DNA of 64,000 bases from Krasilnikoviella flava (GTDB taxonomy: Bacteria; Actinomycetota; Actinomycetes; Actinomycetales; Cellulomonadaceae): assembly GCF_900167525.1 (NCBI RefSeq), contig NZ_FUZQ01000001.1, positions 434,001-498,000 of the forward strand, written 5' to 3'. Below are positions 35,358 through 44,367 of the stretch, in pieces (the stretch's first letter is position 1; each line of letters opens with the position of its first letter). The translations under genes were made by a program, and so were the position numbers. The notes beneath the pieces are model-generated. The model searched no databases, was not told the DNA's origin, and saw only the letters and a program-made list of their open reading frames with translations.

Positions 35358-35999
35358 ATGACCGAAAGGCGACGCCGCGGCCCGGTCGTGCTCGCCGTGT
35401 CCGCCGCGTCGGCCGGCCTGTTCGTCGCCCTCTTCGCGCTGGCGGTGCTGACCGAGCCGGGTCAGCGCGCGGACGTCGCGGGCCTCGCGCTCCTGACCGC
35501 CCCCGAGCCGCTCCTCGCCGGGACCGCGCGCCTCGTGCGCGCGCTGCTGCCCGTCGCCGCGGCGGGCGTCCTCGTGGCGGCCCTCGTCGCGGCGGTGCGG
35601 CGGCGCGCGGGCGGGCGCGCCCTGGTCGTCGCCGGCCTCCCGCTCGTCGTCCTGGGCCTCGCGACCGTGCTGCGGGACATCGTCCTGCCCCGGCCCTTCC
35701 TGGGAGCCCACGGCTACCTCCACAACACCTTCCCGAGCGCCCACACGGCGACGCTCGCGGCCACGTGCGTCGCCGTGGTGCTCCTGCTCGGCCGCCGCCC
35801 GGGCGGGTGGGCGACGGCGGCGCTCGCGACCTCCGTGCTCCTGGCCGCCTGGGCCAACGTCGCGACCCAGGCCCACCGGCCGAGCGACGTCGTGGGGGCG
35901 CTGCTCCTGGTGGGGATCGTCGCGCCCTGGGCGGTCCCCGCGAGCCGACCGGGCTCCCGGGACGGTCAGCCGACGCCCGAGTCGACGAACCGGAGGTAG
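35358..35999 (+). CDS. PAP2-superfamily membrane protein, atypical active site
   Basis: A 213-residue protein with about six transmembrane helices. PAP2 motifs are partly present: RDIVLPRPF resembles motif 1 (KX6RP), NTFPSAHTATLA is motif 2 (PSGH with Ala for Gly), and AHRPSDVVG supplies the HxxxD of motif 3. The Ser-Arg normally six to seven residues before that histidine reads Ala-Asn. PAP2 enzymes dephosphorylate lipids such as undecaprenyl pyrophosphate or phosphatidic acid; loss of the Arg may weaken activity. A paralogue with the same change is at 44591-45262. The 3' end overlaps the convergent nucleotidyltransferase gene by 34 bp. Confidence 0.75.
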   Translation: MTERRRRGPVVLAVSAASAGLFVALFALAVLTEPGQRADVAGLALLTAPEPLLAGTARLVRALLPVAAAGVLVAALVAAVRRRAGGRALVVAGLPLVVLGLATVLRDIVLPRPFLGAHGYLHNTFPSAHTATLAATCVAVVLLLGRRPGGWATAALATSVLLAAWANVATQAHRPSDVVGALLLVGIVAPWAVPASRPGSRDGQPTPESTNRR

Positions 36000-37141
36000 C
36001 CCTCCCGGGCCCGCTCGTCCGGGACGTCGAGGCGCAGCGCCTTCTCCCCGGCGTCGGGCAGCCCGCGCCGGAGCGCACGGTCGATCCGGCGCTGCGCGAC
36101 GGCGTGCCCCACCAGCGCCGTCGTCGTCCCCCACGCCCGCGGCCGGGCACCGGCGTAGAGCCGGCCGCCGCGGTGCGGGTCGCCGGGCAGGTCGGGGAAG
36201 CCGCGGCGGCGGTCCAGCGCGGCGGCGGCGCCCCGCAGCACGGTCGGCACCCGCAGCCCCGTGCCGCCGAGCGACTCCTCGCCGTGGCCGCCGAGCACCC
36301 GCGCGGCGCGGTCGACGACGAGCGCCACCGGCGCCTCGATCCGCATGGCTCGGGCACGCGGGCCGATCTCCTGCCGCGCCCCGTCGCACGCCGCGACGGC
36401 GGCGGCGACGTCCACGAGCCACAGGAGCCGCCCGGCGCCCGCCTGCGCGGCGTGGAACGCCAGCACGAGCACCGAGTCGACCGGGTCGAACGTCGGGACG
36501 ACCCGTCCGCCACCCAGCGCCACCGTGCGGCGCCTGGCGATCATCGCCTCGGGGTCGGTGCGGAAGCTGCGCCGCAGCGCGTGCGGCACGGCGAAGTCCC
36601 AGTGCAGGTCGAGGTGGACGCCGAGGGGCCCGCGCATCGCGTACTCCGCGCGCCGCTCGCGCACCATGAGGGGCCAGTTGCGGTCGACGCCCGTGCAGCC
36701 TGCCGCATCCAGCGCCTCGACCGCCGCCCGGAAGCCGGCCCGCGGCACGTACAGGTCGAGGTCGTAGTACTCCCGCATGTCCGGCGCGGGCCAGAGCGCG
36801 GCGGCCGTCGGCCCCTTGGCGACCACCCACGGCACGCCGGCGCGGTCGAGCGCCGCGCCCAGGACGGCGAGCTCGGCGAGCGCGCCCAGGTGGCGCACCA
36901 CCTGCTCGTCGCGCGCGCGGCGCAGCGGCGCTCGCCACCGCTCCGGGCAGTCCGGGCGGCCCGCGACGTGCTTCGCCACGGCGGGCAGGACGCGGTGGTC
37001 CTGGGCGGCGTCGGCCAGGTGCTCGAGCCGGATGCCGTCGAGCGATCCGGACGACGACCCGGTCGACGCACGGCCCGCGGGCGCGACGGAGTCGAGCAGG
37101 ATCTGCGCCAGCGGGCGGCGCACCGTCGGTCGTGCCCCCAT
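35966..37141 (-). CDS. Nucleotidyltransferase-fold protein (NTP_transf_5 type) of the lasso cluster
   Basis: A 391-residue protein. WVVAKGPTAAALWPAPDMREYYDLDLYVPR (described in two parts: VAKGPTAAALWP near residue 107 and DMREYYDLDLYV near 121) matches the uncharacterised nucleotidyltransferase family PF14907, where the DxD-like acidic pair would bind metal. GVHLDLHWDFAVPHALRRSF is a second family block. Members often sit in RiPP, especially lasso-peptide, and polysaccharide loci. The neighbours here are an ABC exporter and an HprK-like kinase, so it may nucleotidylate the peptide or serve the exopolysaccharide genes. The role is inferred from context. Confidence 0.75.
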   Translation of the reverse strand: MGARPTVRRPLAQILLDSVAPAGRASTGSSSGSLDGIRLEHLADAAQDHRVLPAVAKHVAGRPDCPERWRAPLRRARDEQVVRHLGALAELAVLGAALDRAGVPWVVAKGPTAAALWPAPDMREYYDLDLYVPRAGFRAAVEALDAAGCTGVDRNWPLMVRERRAEYAMRGPLGVHLDLHWDFAVPHALRRSFRTDPEAMIARRRTVALGGGRVVPTFDPVDSVLVLAFHAAQAGAGRLLWLVDVAAAVAACDGARQEIGPRARAMRIEAPVALVVDRAARVLGGHGEESLGGTGLRVPTVLRGAAAALDRRRGFPDLPGDPHRGGRLYAGARPRAWGTTTALVGHAVAQRRIDRALRRGLPDAGEKALRLDVPDERAREGYLRFVDSGVG

Positions 37142-37279
37142 CCCGGCAGGATAGGGAGCGCCGGGCAACCGTGGGGCGTCGGCAGCGGGCGAATTCTCGG
37201 CCGGACCGTCCTCCGGCCGCCCCTGCGCGGCTAGCGTGTGTGAGGCCGGGCCGAGCCCCGGCACAGGACGGAGCGGTCA

Positions 37280-39169
37280 GTGGCAGACAGCGCGGCGGGT
37301 GGCACGCCCGAGAGCGACGGGCGGCGGGGGCGCCGCCTGCTGCGGCTGCTCGGCGGGTCGCTGCGGGTGTCCTGGCAGGCGAGCCGGCCCTTGTTCCTCA
37401 CGATGCTGGCGCTCCAGGTGCTCGTCGCGGGGGCGCTGGCCGGCCAGGTGCTGGTCGTCTCCGCGCTGCTCGACGTGCTGCTCGGGCTGGCCGAGGGGTC
37501 GGGCGGGCTCGCGTCGGTCACCGGGCCGGTCCTCGCCCTCGCCGCGCTGACCGGCCTGGCCACGGTCGCGGGCGGCCTCCAGGCGTCGGCGCGCCGGGTG
37601 CTCGGCGAGCACGTCGCGCGGCTGATGGCCGAGGAGGTGCAGGAGGTCGCGACGAGCGTGCCGCTCGAGCACTTCGAGTCGGCCACGTTCTACGACCGGC
37701 TGCAGCGGGTCCGCGTCAACGCGCTCTCGCGTCCCTTCCAGGTGACGCAGGGGATGTTCGACCTGCTGGGGTCGTCGATCGCCACGGTCGGCGTGGGCGC
37801 GGCGCTGGTCGCGCTGCACCCCGTGCTGCTCCCCCTGCTCGCGCTCGGCGGCCTGCCGCTGCTGGTCACGGGCCGGCGCGAGGGCAGGCTGGAGTTCGCG
37901 TTCAGGGTGGCGCAGACGACCAACGAGCGCGAGCGCATCTACACCAACTACGTGCAGAGCAGCCGGGACGAGGCCAAGGAGATCCGCGCCTTCCAGTCGG
38001 CCCCGTGGCTGCAGGCGCGCTACCGCGAGCTGTACGGCACCTACCTGGCCGACCTGGCCCGCCACGTGCGGCGCCGGGCGCTGACGAACGGCGTGGGCAA
38101 CCTCGCCGCGGCCGTGGTGCTCGCGGGCGTGCTGCTGGTGCTGGCCTGGCTCATCACGCGCGGCGAGGTGACGTTCTCCGAGGCGGGGGCCGCCGTCGTC
38201 GCGGTCCGGATGCTCCAGGGGCAGATCCAGGGCATCTTCGGCGGCGTCCAGCAGATCTTCGAGTCGGGGCTGTTCCTGGACGACGTGCACGCGTTCCTCA
38301 CCGACGGGCGGGCTGCGGCGCGCGCCGCCGACGGGAGCGAGGAGCCGCCGGCCGCGTTCCCCGGCGTCTTCGCCCATGGCGTCTCCTTCACCTATCCGGG
38401 CTCCCGGCGCCCGGCGCTGCGCGACGTGGACCTCGCGCTGCGCCCCGGCGAGGTCGTCGCCCTCGTGGGCGCCAACGGCTCCGGCAAGACCACCCTCGCC
38501 AAGCTCCTCGCCGGCCTGTACGAGCCGACGTCGGGCACCGTCCTGTGGGGCGACCGGCCGCTGGCCGGGATGCGCGGCGCGGCCGTGCGGTCCCAGGTGG
38601 CGGTGATCTTCCAGGACTTCGTCCACTACGCCTACACGGCCACGTGGAACATCGCCCTCGGCCGGACCGACGTCCCGGTCGACCACAAGCGGGTGCGGCG
38701 CTCGGCCCGGGTCTCGGGGGTGGACGACGCCCTCGCCGGCCTTCCCGACGGGTACGAGTCACGGCTGTCGCGCATGTTCCCCGGCGGCACCGAGCTCTCC
38801 GGCGGCCAGTGGCAGCGCGTCGCGATCGCCCGCGCGTTCTACCGGGACGCGGCGCTCGTCATCCTCGACGAGCCGACCGCCGCCATGGACCCGCTGGCGG
38901 AGCACGACCTGTTCTCGTCGCTGCGGGCCACGCTCGACGGGCGGACGGCGCTCTTCGTGTCGCACCGCTTCTCGACCGTGCGGTCGGCGGACCGCATCGT
39001 GGTGCTCGACGACGGCGCCGTGGTGGAGCAGGGCTCCCACGACGAGCTGATGGCGCTCGACGGCGCCTACGCGGAGATGTTCACGGTCCAGGCCCGGTCC
39101 TACCTGGACGGCGCGTCGGCACCGACCAACGGGCGCGCCGAGGCCTCGGCCACCGACCGGACGACCTGA
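37280..39169 (+). CDS. ABC exporter, fused permease and ATPase (lasso peptide export)
   Basis: A 629-residue half-transporter. Residues ~15-330 form a six-helix exporter domain (FLTMLALQVLVAGALAGQVL, VVLAGVLLVLALLI-like helices). The ATPase domain has Walker A LVGANGSGKTTLAKLLAGLY (~395), the signature LSGGQWQRVAIARAF (~505) and Walker B LVILDEPTAAMDPLAEHD (~526), with the H-loop in FVSHRFSTVRSADRI. There is no C39 peptidase domain. It starts with GTG. The position beside lasso biosynthesis genes suggests export of the mature peptide and self-immunity. The 3' end overlaps the convergent kinase gene by 70 bp. Confidence 0.85.
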   Translation: MADSAAGGTPESDGRRGRRLLRLLGGSLRVSWQASRPLFLTMLALQVLVAGALAGQVLVVSALLDVLLGLAEGSGGLASVTGPVLALAALTGLATVAGGLQASARRVLGEHVARLMAEEVQEVATSVPLEHFESATFYDRLQRVRVNALSRPFQVTQGMFDLLGSSIATVGVGAALVALHPVLLPLLALGGLPLLVTGRREGRLEFAFRVAQTTNERERIYTNYVQSSRDEAKEIRAFQSAPWLQARYRELYGTYLADLARHVRRRALTNGVGNLAAAVVLAGVLLVLAWLITRGEVTFSEAGAAVVAVRMLQGQIQGIFGGVQQIFESGLFLDDVHAFLTDGRAAARAADGSEEPPAAFPGVFAHGVSFTYPGSRRPALRDVDLALRPGEVVALVGANGSGKTTLAKLLAGLYEPTSGTVLWGDRPLAGMRGAAVRSQVAVIFQDFVHYAYTATWNIALGRTDVPVDHKRVRRSARVSGVDDALAGLPDGYESRLSRMFPGGTELSGGQWQRVAIARAFYRDAALVILDEPTAAMDPLAEHDLFSSLRATLDGRTALFVSHRFSTVRSADRIVVLDDGAVVEQGSHDELMALDGAYAEMFTVQARSYLDGASAPTNGRAEASATDRTT

Positions 39170-40086
39170 GCGCCCAGCCCCGGCGCGAACGGCGGCCCCC
39201 ACGGGACGTCCGCCACCAGCACGGGGACGGCGCGGGCGACGTCGGCGAGGTGGCGCAGGTGGACGCTCTGCACGCGCTCGTCCAGCCAGCCGTGCAGCCG
39301 GGGGTAGTGCAGCAGCTCGAGGAGCGCCGCCGTGCCGGTCCGCCGGCGCACGACGAGCTCCCCGCCGTCCCTGTCGGGCTGCGGCACGACGATCGCGCGC
39401 AGCGGGCGGCGGTCGCGCGCGCCCGCGCCGAGCTGCAGCACGTGCCGGGCGTCGGCGCTCACGCGGTGCCCGGGGGCCCGCCCGGCGAACCGCCCGGCCA
39501 GCGTGTCGGCGCCCTTGCGCAGCCGCACCTCCGTGGCCCCCAGCCGGGCCGCGAAGCCGTCGTCGGTGCGGTCCAGGCGCAGCACGTCGTCGGTGACGAG
39601 GGCGGCCCCCTCCGCGCACAGCAGCGTCGCCATCGTCGACTTGCCCATGCCCGAGTAGCCGACGAACGCGACCACACCGTCGTCGTCCTCGACCGCGCTC
39701 GCGTGCAGCACGGCCTCGCCCCGCAGGTACAGTTGGAAGGCGAGCATGCCGCCGGTGGTGAGCACCCGGCTCAGGCCCGGGTCGACACCGCCGGCCTCCC
39801 GCAGCACGACGTCCCGCAGGTCGGCCGACACCTCGAAGTCGCACGCGTCGTGGAAGCGCAGCAGATAGCCGTCGGCGCCCAGGTCCCAGGCGCTGTACCA
39901 GGGGTCCCCGGCCAGCTCGTGGTGCAGGACCGGCCTCCCGCCGGGAGTCGTGCGCTGGTCCGTGCCAGGCCCGGCGGCGACCACGACGTCGGCCCGGGCA
40001 GCGCCCGCGTCCGCCCGGTCCTGGTGCAGGTCGAAGGGCGCCTCGACCACGAGGCCGTAGAGCTGTTGGCGGTCCGTCACGGTCAC
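39100..40086 (-). CDS. HprK-like peptide kinase of the lasso cluster
   Basis: A 328-residue protein with an HPr-kinase-like fold. HASAVEDDDGVVAFVGYSGM leads into Walker A GYSGMGKST (residues ~143-151), and ALVTDDVLRLD (~163-172) carries the paired aspartates. In the paeninodin-type lasso pathway a homologue phosphorylates the side chain of the precursor's C-terminal serine. The precursor here also ends in serine, so the same reaction is likely. The GTG start overlaps the B2 stop (GTGA), tying it to the biosynthetic operon C-B2-K. The N-terminal ~120 residues may be the peptide-recognition part. Confidence 0.82.
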   Translation of the reverse strand: MTVTDRQQLYGLVVEAPFDLHQDRADAGAARADVVVAAGPGTDQRTTPGGRPVLHHELAGDPWYSAWDLGADGYLLRFHDACDFEVSADLRDVVLREAGGVDPGLSRVLTTGGMLAFQLYLRGEAVLHASAVEDDDGVVAFVGYSGMGKSTMATLLCAEGAALVTDDVLRLDRTDDGFAARLGATEVRLRKGADTLAGRFAGRAPGHRVSADARHVLQLGAGARDRRPLRAIVVPQPDRDGGELVVRRRTGTAALLELLHYPRLHGWLDERVQSVHLRHLADVARAVPVLVADVPWGPPFAPGLGAQVVRSVAEASARPLVGADAPSR

Positions 40087-40523
40087 GCTCCTGGGGTCGG
40101 GACCACGAGCGGCCGGAAGCCGGTGCCGCGGTCCAGGTCGAGGTCCCGGCCGTCGACGCGCAGCCAGGCGTGCGCCCGCACGACGCCGCCGGCCTTGGCG
40201 ACGCCCAGCACGAGGGCGGGACGACGGTCGCGCAGCACGCGGCCGGCCAGGATCGCCGAGCGCAGGCACGTGCCGTTCACGCCGGGCAGGCGCAGCACGC
40301 GCCGCAGGACGCGCAGCTCCCGCGTCTCGGCGTCGTCCAGCGTGCCCGGGTCGAGGTCGCCCGCAGCGGGCTCGGGCGACGCCAGCAGGGCGAGGTCGTA
40401 GCGCCGGGCGACCCGCGCCACGTCCCAGCGCCGCAGGCGCGTCTCGAGCAGCAGCAGGGCCCCGAGGAACCGCAGCGCCAGCGGGACGGCGCGCAACCGG
40501 CGGAGCGCCGCGGGCGCGGTCAC
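40083..40523 (-). CDS. Lasso peptide biosynthesis B2 protein (leader peptidase)
   Basis: A 146-residue transglutaminase-like cysteine protease that removes the leader from the precursor together with the RRE protein. The predicted triad is visible: Cys86 in NGTCLRSAIL, His118 in RAHAWLRVDG and Asp124 in the same block. ALRFLGALLLLETRLRRWDV near the N-terminus matches the usual hydrophobic/basic start of B2 proteins. GTG 40523 overlaps the cyclase stop (GTGA) and its own stop overlaps the kinase start, so cyclase, protease and kinase are translationally coupled. Confidence 0.9.
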   Translation of the reverse strand: MTAPAALRRLRAVPLALRFLGALLLLETRLRRWDVARVARRYDLALLASPEPAAGDLDPGTLDDAETRELRVLRRVLRLPGVNGTCLRSAILAGRVLRDRRPALVLGVAKAGGVVRAHAWLRVDGRDLDLDRGTGFRPLVVPTPGA

Positions 40524-41701
40524 CGCGCCGCCTCCGCCCCGACGGACGCCAGCCACGCCTGCTGCAGCAGCAGGCTCGTCGGCCCGGGCGGGAAGCCCGA
40601 CAGCCAGGCGGCGCGGAGCCCGCCGACGTCGACCAGGGCGGGGTCGACGCCGTCCCCGCCCCACCGGACGGCGAAGTCGCGGGTCGCGGCCCCCAGGTAG
40701 GCGCGGTTGAACGACGCCTTGCTCGACCGCGCGCACACCGCGTCCGGGAGCAGGGTGCCGAAGACGGCGCGCATGCCCGCGGTGCGGTCCGCGAACCCCC
40801 ACGGGTGGCGCGCGCCCAGCGCACCGAGGAAGCCGTCGTCCAGCAGCGGGTGGGCGAGCGCGACGTCGTGCTCGGCGGCCACCTGCCCGAACGTGTCCAG
40901 GAAGACGCGGCTCGCGCGCCGGCGTCGCAGCCAGCGCAGCCCGCGGGCGTACGACAGCGGCTCGGCGGCGGCGTCGCGGGCGATCTCGTCGGCGAGCCGC
41001 GCGGTCGTGCCGCGCGTCAGCCACGTGAGGGCCGCCGTGCTGCGCGCCGTGGCGGCGTGCTCCCGCCACCGGCGCCCGGGGCCGGGCAGCAGCGAGGCCA
41101 GCGCCGCCCGCCGGGGGGTGCCCACCCGCCCCTGCCCGCGCGCGACCCGCAGCAGCGCCCGGGACCGGCGGTCGCCGAACACCTCGTCGCCGCCCTCGCC
41201 CGTGAGCACGGCGTGCCCCCGGAGCTCGCGCAGCATCGCGTCCTTGACGTGCATGGTCGCCGGGAACAGCAGCCCGCGGCGCAGCAGGCTCTCCCGCGCC
41301 CCCTCGCCGAGCAGGTCGTTCTCGCCGCCGCCGACGACGATCCGCCGCCACGTCGCGAGCCCGAGGTGCCGGACGACCGACTCCTGCCAGGCCGACTCGT
41401 CCGCCTCCGCGACGCCGGGGTAGCGGAAGGTCACGGGGACCGGGTCGGGGGCGCCGTCCTCGCGGGCGACGGCGGTCGCGACGGCGAGCACGGCGGACGA
41501 GTCCCGCCCGCCGGAGAAGGTGACGGCCACGGGCCGCCCTGCGGCCGCGCGGCGCACGGCACCCTTGATCGCCTCCAGCGGCTCCCCGGTCCTCCGGAGC
41601 GTCGTCCGGCGCGTCGCCGCGGGCGCCGGGTCGGCGGGGACCAGTCCGGGCAGCCAGCACGCGGCGACCTCGAAGGCCGTCGGGCGGTAGGAGGACGTCA
41701 T
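40520..41701 (-). CDS. Lasso cyclase, asparagine-synthetase-like, lacking the glutaminase domain
   Basis: A 393-residue ATP-dependent macrolactam synthetase. The PP-loop AVTFSGGRDSSAVLAVATAV lies at ~60-78. GHAVLTGEGGDEVFGDRRSR and HPLLDDGFLGALGARHPWGF are asparagine-synthetase landmarks, and KASFNRAYLGA the C-terminal block. Lasso cyclases usually have ~550-620 residues with an N-terminal glutamine amidotransferase-like domain; here that domain is absent. The start at ATG 41701 is forced because upstream sequence encodes the precursor in another frame. It would adenylate the Asp side chain of the core and close the ring. Confidence 0.9.
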   Translation of the reverse strand: MTSSYRPTAFEVAACWLPGLVPADPAPAATRRTTLRRTGEPLEAIKGAVRRAAAGRPVAVTFSGGRDSSAVLAVATAVAREDGAPDPVPVTFRYPGVAEADESAWQESVVRHLGLATWRRIVVGGGENDLLGEGARESLLRRGLLFPATMHVKDAMLRELRGHAVLTGEGGDEVFGDRRSRALLRVARGQGRVGTPRRAALASLLPGPGRRWREHAATARSTAALTWLTRGTTARLADEIARDAAAEPLSYARGLRWLRRRRASRVFLDTFGQVAAEHDVALAHPLLDDGFLGALGARHPWGFADRTAGMRAVFGTLLPDAVCARSSKASFNRAYLGAATRDFAVRWGGDGVDPALVDVGGLRAAWLSGFPPGPTSLLLQQAWLASVGAEAAR

Positions 41702-41771
41702 CGTCGGTCCAGGGTCGCTCGGTGCAGAGTTGTCACGTGCAGGGTTGCTCGGACCGGAGATGCTCGGTCGA

Positions 41772-41795
41772 GGAGCCGGCGGTACCGGCCGCTCC
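41772..41795 (-). promoter_or_regulatory. Imperfect hairpin between lasso precursor and cyclase genes
   Basis: GGAGC and GCTCC bracket a GGTACC-centred imperfect inverted repeat in the 131-bp gap between the precursor stop and the cyclase start. RiPP precursor genes often have a partial terminator here so that more precursor than enzyme is made. The call rests on position and weak pairing. Confidence 0.3.
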
Positions 41796-41832
41796 GACGT
41801 CGGAACGACCGGCACCGTGTCCCGGGTGGGGT

Positions 41833-41946
41833 TCAGGACGCCTTGCCCTTGTGGAACAGGTCGCCGTCGTAGTCGAAGGCGAACTGCTGCTCCAGCGTGA
41901 CGTCCTTGACCGAGCCCACCTCGGTGATGCGCGGTGCTTCGTACAT
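41833..41946 (-). CDS. Lasso peptide precursor
   Basis: A 37-residue precursor. The leader MYEAPRITEVGSVKDVTL has the YxxPxhxxxG spacing recognised by RRE proteins and a threonine at the -2 position. The predicted core is EQQFAFDYDGDLFHKGKAS (19 residues). Ring closure from Glu1 to Asp9 (nine-residue ring) or Asp7 is possible, leaving a GDLFHKGKAS tail where Phe, His and Lys could act as plugs. The last residue is serine, the expected target of the neighbouring HprK-like kinase. A strong AGGGGAG site precedes ATG 41946. The core boundary is inferred from the conserved Thr; Glu at position 1 is unusual. Confidence 0.85.
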   Translation of the reverse strand: MYEAPRITEVGSVKDVTLEQQFAFDYDGDLFHKGKAS

Positions 41947-42051
41947 CGGAGTACTCCCCTCTCCTCGTTGGTGCAGGACGCGCCCAACGTCGCGCCGCGA
42001 GCAACGAGGGGTCAAGCACTTCCGGCCGAAGTCACCCCGCGCCCCGAGGCC

Positions 42052-42073
42052 TTTCACCCGACGCCGGGTGAAA
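42052..42073. promoter_or_regulatory. Palindromic TTTCACCCG operator in the divergent lasso promoter
   Basis: TTTCACCCG and CGGGTGAAA form a perfect 9-bp inverted repeat with a 4-bp spacer, midway between the divergent precursor (start 41946) and PqqD-like (start 42158) genes. A -10-like CCTATCCT lies at about 42109-42116 on the plus strand. The half-site is the motif seen at 33970, 44475, 44495 and 59542. It probably binds a dimeric regulator controlling both lasso transcripts. Confidence 0.55.
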
Positions 42074-42157
42074 CCTTCGTCCCACCCCCGCCCGGGGCTC
42101 CGGATCGGCCTATCCTCGGGGCGGCACGACCCGAGAACCGCGACGAGAGGCACGGCG

Positions 42158-42415
42158 ATGAGGCTGCGCGAGGACGGCGTCACCTGGCAGGAGATCGACG
42201 GCGAGCTGGTCATCCTCGACCTCGCGTCGTCCACGTACCTCACGACCAACGGCTCCGGCGCCTTCGCGGCGAAGCTGCTGCAGGAGGACCGCACGACCGA
42301 CGACCTCGCGGACGCGCTCGTCGCCGAGTACGGCATCCCCGCCGACGTCGCGCAGCAGGACGCCGGGGCCTTCGTCGACGCGCTGCGCGACCGTGGCCTC
42401 CTGGTCGAGGACTGA
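42158..42415 (+). CDS. PqqD-family RiPP recognition element (lasso B1)
   Basis: An 85-residue stand-alone RRE with the PqqD pattern: REDGVTWQEIDGELVILDLA, STYLTTNGSGAFAAKLLQ and DLADALVAEYGIPADVAQQD, ending DALRDRGLLVED. RRE proteins bind the precursor leader and present it to the B2 protease. It is transcribed divergently from the precursor rather than in line with B2, a split arrangement. ATG 42158 follows a plausible CGACGAGAGG ribosome site. It ends 6 bp from the stop of the convergent GDP-mannose dehydratase paralogue. Confidence 0.9.
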   Translation: MRLREDGVTWQEIDGELVILDLASSTYLTTNGSGAFAAKLLQEDRTTDDLADALVAEYGIPADVAQQDAGAFVDALRDRGLLVED

Positions 42416-42421
42416 CCGCGC

Positions 42422-43374
42422 TCAGACCGTGAGCAGGGCCAGGTCGTGCCGCACCATGCGGCCGACGATCTCGTCGAACGCGATCGTGCCGCCCCAGCCG
42501 AGCTCCTCGCGAGCCCGCCGCGGGTCCCCGACCTGCTCCGCGGGGTCGGCGGGGCGCACGAACCGGGGGTCGACGGTGACGTGCCGGGACCAGTCGTCGA
42601 CGCCCGCCGCGGCGAACGCCGCCGCCACGAAGTCGGCCACCGAGCGGGTCGCCCCCGACGCGACCACGAAGTCGTCCGCGACCGGGTGCCGGACCGCCCG
42701 CACCATCGCGTCGACGTAGTCGGGCGCCCACCCCCAGTCGCGGCGGGCGTCGAGGTTGCCCAGCGCGAGCGTGCCCGAGCCCTCGCGCGCGATCCGCGCG
42801 GCGGCGGCGGTGATCTTGCGGGTCACGAACGTCTCCGGGCGGCGCGGCGACTCGTGGTTGTAGAGCACGCACGCCGAGACGCCGAGCCCGCGCGCCCGGT
42901 ACACCGCGGCCATCTGGTGGGCGTACGCCTTGGCGGCGCCGTAAGGAGACGACGGCCGGACCGTCGTGCCCTCGTCCTGCGGCGTGCGGTCGGGCGTGCC
43001 GAAGATCTCCGCGCTGGAGGCCTGCAGCACCCGGACCGTGCGGCCCGAGTCCTCCTGCAGGCGCCACGCGGCGTCGTAGAGGGCCACGGCGCCGAGCCCT
43101 GACACCGCGCCCGTCTCGACGGGGTGCTGCCACGAGTACGCGACCGAGCTGATCCCGCCCAGGTTGTAGATCTCGTCCGGCCTCGTGCGTCGTACGAGGT
43201 CCGCCAGCCCCTCGGCGTCGCCGAGGTCGCCCACGCAGAGGCCGACCTCGCGGGGCAGGCCCTCCGGGTGCTCGCCCTCGCGGACCAGCCCGTGCACCTC
43301 GGCGCCCTCGGCGACGAGCCGCTCGGCCAGGTAGGACCCGTCCTGCCCGGCGACTCCCGTGACGAGGGCGACCG

Positions 43375-43378
<4 letters not shown>
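42422..43378 (-). CDS. GDP-mannose 4,6-dehydratase paralogue
   Basis: A 318-residue extended SDR. The NAD(P) site is [15 protein letters not shown] at the N-terminus. [11 protein letters not shown] carries the catalytic Ser and [18 protein letters not shown] the YxxxK pair. [19 protein letters not shown] and [19 protein letters not shown] are specific to GDP-mannose 4,6-dehydratases. All key residues are kept, yet it is a second copy next to the canonical gene and clearly diverged from it. The GTG start overlaps the stop of the upstream gene (GTGA). It may act on a related nucleotide sugar or form a heteromer. Confidence 0.85.

Positions 43379-44367
<989 letters not shown>

Follow-up and report, generated by a model that had tools for sequence, protein, structure and literature searches.

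A 64,000-nucleotide stretch of the 4.85 Mb genome of the actinobacterium Krasilnikoviella flava (NCBI RefSeq assembly GCF_900167525.1, contig NZ_FUZQ01000001.1, positions 434,001 to 498,000; hereafter the window) contains, at 35966-42415, a set of seven lasso-peptide genes, designated A, B1, C, B2, K, D and N. This locus is interpreted as a full lasso-peptide pathway that includes a branch for phospho-tailoring of the C-terminus, a reading to which we assign a probability of about 0.83. The locus had been noticed in a first-pass annotation, the coordinates of which are retained here. Direct observation covers the genes, how they are ordered and coupled, and the intact catalytic residues of the kinase K, as well as a correlation across Actinobacteria between kinases of this type and precursor peptides that carry Ser at or next to the C-terminus.

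The genes that define the lasso class are all present at the locus: a precursor with a YxxP leader and Thr at −2, the RRE protein B1, the protease B2 and an asparagine-synthetase-like cyclase. Precursor gene A (41833-41946, minus strand) encodes a peptide of 37 residues, MYEAPRITEVGSVKDVTLEQQFAFDYDGDLFHKGKAS, which consists of the leader MYEAPRITEVGSVKDVTL and the core EQQFAFDYDGDLFHKGKAS, ends in Ser and scores above the cut-off of the NF033521 lasso_leader_L3 model (27.8 versus 19 bits). Divergent from A lies B1 (42158-42415, plus strand), a discrete PqqD-like RRE (PF05402, 62.9 bits), an arrangement shared by loci L020, L021, L022, L025, L027, L030, L031, L034 and L035 of the comparison set. 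The cyclase C (40520-41701, minus strand; 393 residues) matches PF00733 above cut-off, and the transglutaminase-like leader protease B2 (40083-40523, minus strand) exceeds the cut-offs of both NF033537 and PF13471. K (39100-40086, minus strand) is a kinase of the HprK/PEPCK fold, as judged from its fold model and catalytic residues, and is predicted to phosphorylate the C-terminal Ser. D (37280-39169, plus strand) is an MsbA-like ATP-binding cassette (ABC) exporter with an ATPase domain above the Pfam cut-off, and N (35966-37141, minus strand) is a PF14907 nucleotidyltransferase-fold protein (136 bits versus a cut-off of 31) and a predicted phospho-Ser modifier. A GTGA tetranucleotide is shared by the stop codon of C and the GTG start codon of B2 (40520-40523), and another by the stop codon of B2 and the GTG start codon of the kinase gene (40083-40086); because such an overlap occurs at each junction, the translational coupling of C, B2 and K is real. 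The 3′-end of D and the kinase gene overlap convergently by 70 bases (39100-39169), with similar overlaps in L020 and L021. The precursor, RRE, protease, cyclase, coupled kinase, exporter and PF14907 protein listed in the first-pass annotation were all recovered with the features ascribed to them. The gene set is an intact, conserved pathway and not a chance arrangement, because it recurs in relatives, with kinase identities of 43-94% within the family.

The association between the kinase and the C-terminal Ser was assessed by comparing precursors from kinase-bearing and kinase-less loci. Precursors were recognized by the leader motif, including its Thr, and not by the tail, and the presence of the Thr is hence partly built in; identical peptides and same-genome duplicates were merged before counting. 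Kinase-bearing loci yielded 67 distinct precursors (57 locus entries), comprising 58 that end in Ser, eight in Ser-Arg and one in Ser-Phe, whereas the 17 kinase-less actinobacterial lasso loci yielded 19 precursors, none of which has a terminal Ser (Fisher p 1e-12, a value that overstates the evidence because the loci are related). The labels of the kinase tree indicate that the pattern extends over many families. In the window core, the terminal Ser19 is the sole Ser or Thr, and it is therefore the only ordinary kinase target within the core. Taken with the intact catalytic motif described below, this co-occurrence bears out, as far as sequence tells, the C-terminal phosphorylation proposed by the first-pass annotation, and phosphorylation of the C-terminal Ser by K is regarded as a well-supported prediction.

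The control set was derived from 57 B2-centred loci (17 + 20 + 20) hand-picked from B2 matches. Sixteen of these carried a kinase scoring above 100 bits, and in one (L143) the kinase lay just outside the fetched stretch; five loci with kinase-like matches of 26-77 bits (L105, L106, L144, L146 and L147) were excluded from both sets, and L116, with a 14-bit match, was treated as kinase-less. The kinase-less label was initially given on the basis of the fetched stretch. Of the 35 kinase-less loci that remained, 17 had a recognized precursor; other small open reading frames that fitted the pattern were rejected on visual inspection, among them some in L095, L096, L101, L104, L122 and L129. No precursor was recognized in the kinase-bearing loci L029, L033, L075 and L090, which lie on short or cut contigs, or in L091 and L124. 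L143, with two Ser-ending precursors, was considered as a kinase-less exception and rejected, its kinase being located just past the fetched stretch at G284:C5:312005-312931. A kinase-profile search of the 17 whole control genomes gave matches in two, in both cases on a contig other than that of the control locus: one of 61.6 bits in G331 (C2:761246-761806), approximately 3 kb from a second B2, with the control locus L117 on C1, and one of 31.3 bits in G504. In the five excluded loci, the distant kinase-like proteins adjoin lasso genes; the precursor of L106 ends in Ser-Ser, and none was seen in L144, L146 or L147.

An AlphaFold model of K, built on 47 sequences, had a predicted local distance difference test (pLDDT) score of 94.9, and its Foldseek matches in the PDB (best 50 of 308) were led by PEPCK, HprK/P structures following from rank 44 onwards; PDB sequences searched with K yielded weak matches only. 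The residues H128, G143, G146, G148, K149, S150, D166 and D167 form an intact H-K-D-D catalytic set, with spacing identical to that of the set published for BsfK and other lasso kinases, H148-G163-G166-G168-K169-S170-D186-D187 (PMC10368454). H128, G146, G148, K149, D166 and D167 are invariant in the 47 kinases, G143 is present in 46 and position 150 is Ser in 42. A plasmid collection searched with K gave five partial matches, none covering 80% of it.

Within the GTDB family of the host, the kinase occurs in 18 of 221 genomes and a lasso B2 above cut-off in 31 of 221; the closest titled relatives by kinase identity are Isoptericola sp. QY 916 (94%) and I. cucumis (81%). A kinase-pattern scan of named genomes identified 55 loci in 19 named actinobacterial genera, including Isoptericola, Actinotalea, Cellulosimicrobium, Pengzhenrongella, Propionicicella, Jiangella, Phytoactinopolyspora, Georgenia, Occultella, Nocardioides, Tessaracoccus, Terrabacter, Microbacterium, Actinophytocola and Luteimicrobium, as well as loci in several actinobacterial metagenome-assembled genomes (MAGs) and in one distant Acidobacteriota MAG. 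The placement of the pathway in an actinobacterium by the first-pass annotation is accordingly true as far as it goes and understates its breadth. Among the 47 distinct loci that span 13 kb or more (window included), B1, B2 and C were each found in 45, and D and N each in 38, by gene thresholds that we set ourselves; the loci were gathered via the kinase, and its presence in 47 of 47 therefore carries no weight. In Jiangellaceae loci L045, L051, L053, L054, L066, L134 and L139, two different Ser-ending precursors lie adjacent to each other, alongside a single kinase and a single short cyclase.

The cyclase of these loci is short. C aligns only to positions 241-517 of TIGR01536, and thus comprises the synthetase domain without the N-terminal glutaminase-like domain; the space upstream of it is limited by the precursor gene. 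Against NF033535, the lasso cyclase model of NCBIfam, C scores 16.6 bits versus a cut-off of 525, which we take to reflect divergence together with the missing N-terminal domain. The motif FSGGRDSS is invariant in 38 cyclase sequences. Cyclases of kinase loci measure approximately 370-420 residues, counted from whichever start codon or match lies closest to the profile (that of L141 is split in frame), whereas in nine kinase-less loci the frames measure 599-666 residues, most with approximately 205-265 residues before the synthetase part. In a tenth kinase-less locus, L125, the frame is 443 residues with the cyclase match beginning at 233; the cyclase profile detected only some kinase-less cyclases, and the length comparison covers those ten. 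No match to C was found in the plasmid collection.

The start of the core could be fixed from the leader. In all 67 precursors, Thr lies 15 residues past the leader Tyr, an exact place that formed no part of the search pattern, and the core start is therefore fixed two residues downstream of the Thr. Core residue 1 is Ala in 26 precursors, Gly in 26, Glu in six, Gln in three and another residue in six. At core position 9, 50 of the 67 precursors have Asp or Glu, and ten have neither at positions 7-9. The window core has Asp at both 7 and 9. In the window-like cores EQQFAFDYDG, EGQFALDYDG, EAQFDIDYDG, EGQLALNYDG and QDSFALSFDG, D9 is present throughout, and the residues at position 7 are D, D, D, N and S, respectively, the last two belonging to L031 and L083. 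Asp7 was considered as the ring acceptor and rejected: it is possible in the window core, but relatives of the same pattern lose D7 and keep D9. Because D9 is shared and position 7 is variable, a nine-residue Glu1-Asp9 macrolactam ring is the likeliest prediction. The core start at Glu1 proposed earlier is upheld by the Thr at −2 and by relatives that share the [E/Q]1...D9 pattern. The predicted monoisotopic masses are 2183.99 Da for the lasso peptide, 2263.96 Da with one phosphate and 2426.01 Da with phosphate and hexose.

On the proposed scheme, B1 would bind the YxxP leader of A and present the precursor, and K would use ATP to phosphorylate the Ser19 hydroxyl one or more times while the precursor is still linear. 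B2 would then cleave after Leu(−1), beside the leader Thr at −2, and C would activate Asp9 and join it to the amine of Glu1, closing the nine-residue ring around the tail. The phosphate would next be modified by N, most likely with a sugar in the manner of PsmN, and D would export the product. We infer the reactions of this scheme, the order in which they occur and the chemistry of N from characterized homologues; paeninodin-type kinases, for example, act on the terminal Ser of the linear precursor (PMC9266682, PMC8498205).

Several observations weigh against this pathway. The best curated matches of K (HprK_rel_B/A, Hpr_kinase_C and others) all fall below their cut-offs, the template modelling scores (TM-scores) of its model do not exceed 0.56, and PEPCK ranks ahead of HprK/P among the best 50 of 308 matches; S150 is replaced by Thr in five of the 47 kinases. 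Glu is uncommon as core residue 1, with the six cases given above, and within the fetched stretch N is missing from nine of the 47 long loci and D likewise from nine. The precursor of L105, which was excluded for its weak kinase match, ends in Pro-Gly. Homologous precursors lacking the terminal Ser, which the first-pass annotation had named as evidence to the contrary, do exist, in that nine of the 67 end in Ser-X; Ser is penultimate in all nine, and the other 58 end in Ser. Finally, BsfK, which has the same fold, phosphorylates a ring residue and not the terminal Ser (PMC10368454).

This last point, together with a fold common to PEPCK and HprK, lends some substance to the alternative that the kinase acts elsewhere, on a ring residue, on a cellular protein such as HPr or on a regulator, and that the terminal Ser is incidental. 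Against this stand the lack of any other Ser or Thr in the window core and the contrast between terminal or penultimate Ser in 67 of 67 precursors with the kinase and terminal Ser in 0 of 19 without it. K was also considered as the HPr kinase of the host genome and rejected: the only other PF07475 match in that genome, at 10.9 bits, was judged to be noise, and no second credible match exists. A target other than Ser19 is hence considered improbable. Slightly less probable still is a decayed or silent locus that yields no product. Actinobacterial clusters are often silent, and a scan of 41700-42300 for sigma-70-type promoters found none; however, the frames are open, the catalytic residues are intact and the precursor protein is identical in L020, with one synonymous difference in its gene (three residues are changed in L021). 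Ratios of nonsynonymous to synonymous substitution rates (dN/dS) of approximately 0.18-0.40 against L020 and L021 indicate that K, B2, C and N are under purifying selection, and operator-like repeats upstream of A are kept in near relatives.

These repeats lie in the divergent A/B1 intergenic region. A perfect inverted repeat, TTTCACCC-N6-GGGTGAAA (42052-42073, no strand assigned), is a candidate operator, and a second GGGTGA occurs 22 bases beyond it, the repeat region as a whole spanning 42032-42073. The palindrome is also present in L020, L021 and L034, giving four of the 27 upstream regions viewed. Direct repeats of GGTGA approximately 20-22 bases apart are found upstream of A and also in L027, L028, L030, L031 and L032; they occur in nine of 16 own-family regions versus a mean of 0.02 of 16 in mononucleotide shuffles, a comparison for which both pattern and subset were picked post hoc. 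The palindrome and the GGTGA repeats together constitute a candidate regulator site.

The modification added by N is a separate question. K109, G110, D127 and D129 of N are invariant in 14 aligned sequences. PsmN of the pseudomycoidin system is presumed here to belong to PF14907 as well. Knock-outs have linked PsmN to the presence of one or two hexoses on phospho-Ser (PMC9266682, PMC8498205), and deletion of lppN in the LPP system caused no detectable change in its host (PMC13381572). The first-pass annotation had suggested that the product is perhaps nucleotidylated. The PF14907 match and the invariant K-G and D-x-D positions agree with a true nucleotidyltransferase that would cap the phospho-Ser with a nucleotide and not a sugar, and nucleotidylation followed by the action of a host glycosyltransferase was not excluded for PsmN (PMC9266682); given the hexoses tied to PsmN and the silent lppN deletion, we consider this role unlikely, although clearly more plausible than the two alternatives above, and hexose addition is ranked as the most likely function by analogy. 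The unchanged outcome on deletion of lppN may mean that N depends on a substrate that common hosts do not supply. Two genes of the GDP-mannose 4,6-dehydratase/epimerase family adjoin B1 (42422-44367, minus strand). They could supply a sugar and are more likely unrelated; they say little on N, because among the 55 loci compared only L020 matched them.

The pathway resembles several characterized systems. Pseudomycoidin (psm) of Bacillus pseudomycoides shares the lasso genes, the kinase, a nucleotidyltransferase-family gene and the terminal-Ser target (PMC9266682, PMC8498205), and the PF14907-type N gene of pseudomycoidin-type clusters is present in the window; compared by description, the window locus differs in phylum and in layout, with B1 divergent, A-C-B2-K running one way and D opposite. 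In the paeninodin (pade) system of Paenibacillus dendritiformis and with ThcoK, an HprK-like kinase with the shared H-K-D-D motif acts on the linear precursor and phosphorylates its C-terminal Ser (PMC9266682), but the paeninodin gene order is C A K B1 B2 D, unlike that of the window (PMC5067487), and paeninodin RREs favour Trp leaders, whereas the leader of A has Tyr. SyanK of Sphingobium yanoikuyae is, like K, a terminal-Ser kinase outside the Firmicutes, and polyphosphorylation was shown for it (PMC9266682); one proteobacterial kinase cluster, for which Sphingobium was not named, is ordered A B1 B2 C K D (PMC5067487). The BsfK locus of Bradymonas sediminis shares the HprK-like residue spacing, and its B1 speeds phosphorylation; the modified residue is core Ser3, and the precursor ends in Asp with Ile at −2, in contrast to the terminal Ser and Thr at −2 in A (PMC10368454). 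The LPP systems of Bacillota share an RRE, an HprK-like kinase, a nucleoside triphosphate (NTP) transferase and an MsbA-like exporter, but in their core set a signal-peptidase-like protease replaces B2 and the cyclase; the window has both B2 and C, so it falls outside the LPP definition.

Side branches of the actinobacterial loci depart from the window in tail or ring. Ser-Arg tails were found in eight distinct precursors from seven loci (L035:10747-10872, L036:6121-6270, L052, L057, L058, L067 and L078), with hosts in Luteimicrobium, Cellulosimicrobium marinum, Georgenia, Oceanitalea and Microbacterium ulmi; five of these precursors have Asp at core position 10 and no Asp or Glu at 7-9. The kinase tree holds six of the seven loci in two sets (four rows, 87/0; two rows, 87/79), neither of which is well supported. 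Long two-Cys precursors with a terminal Ser, each upstream of a cyclase, were seen at L026:4459-4641, L028:1793-1972 and L032:2727-2912. Their stretches QNCKYGHGADN, QACKYGYGADN and QACKLGFGSDN conserve CKxGxG[AS]DN, and the precursors have no Asp or Glu at core positions 7-9; if the leader ended after QN or QA, Cys to Asp would span eight residues.

In Actinotalea soli (L024:8274-11596), the precursor, B2 and K genes are consecutive, and N, B1 and an exporter are also present. No lasso cyclase was found in this genome by single-sequence search, the only match being one of 20.6 bits to a 38-row profile, and the core, HGRGKGKGKGPKPGHGGGIS, has no Asp or Glu and keeps the terminal Ser. Actinotalea sp. 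C106 (L152) has a precursor of the same type with two more GK units and the start of B2 directly behind it, and its genome gave no cyclase match with either single sequence or profile. A 660-residue neighbour, considered as the missing Actinotalea cyclase, was rejected as a full-length glutamine-hydrolysing asparagine synthase (446 versus 267 bits). In A. fermentans the kinase is present, with one 32-bit cyclase-profile match; neither a precursor nor a single-sequence cyclase match was found. The Actinotalea branch resembles LPP but uses B2. These loci raise the tentative view, held at slightly less than even odds, that the phospho-tail module (RRE, B2, K, N and exporter) and not the ring is the durable core in Actinobacteria, and that A. 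soli and Actinotalea sp. C106 make linear phosphopeptides, rich in Gly and Lys and cleaved by a lasso protease, as a branch that parallels the LPP of Bacillota and derives from lasso loci.

Phospho-lasso peptides have been placed in Firmicutes and Proteobacteria (PMC8498205), in agreement with the first-pass annotation, and also in Bradymonas (PMC10368454), and paeninodins have been called restricted to Bacillota (PMC13381572). The lasso cluster of Isoptericola sp. AK164 (L027/L048) is in print, with no mention of the kinase in the accessible portion of that article (PMC10425560). No phosphorylated lasso peptide from an actinobacterium was found in the accessible text of open-licence PMC articles; the 2017 RODEO survey and supplements lay outside this search and may list such loci. 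The logic of the pathway is already known from Bacillota and Proteobacteria, and what is new is its actinobacterial breadth and the Ser-Arg and Actinotalea side branches. The purpose of the phosphate and of the N gene is described as still to be unravelled (PMC9266682). In its many precursor variants, its short cyclases of a single domain and its Ser-Arg tails, the actinobacterial branch provides a natural variant set for asking what role the phosphate and N play, and named strains of Isoptericola, Georgenia, Jiangella and Nocardioides exist in collections.

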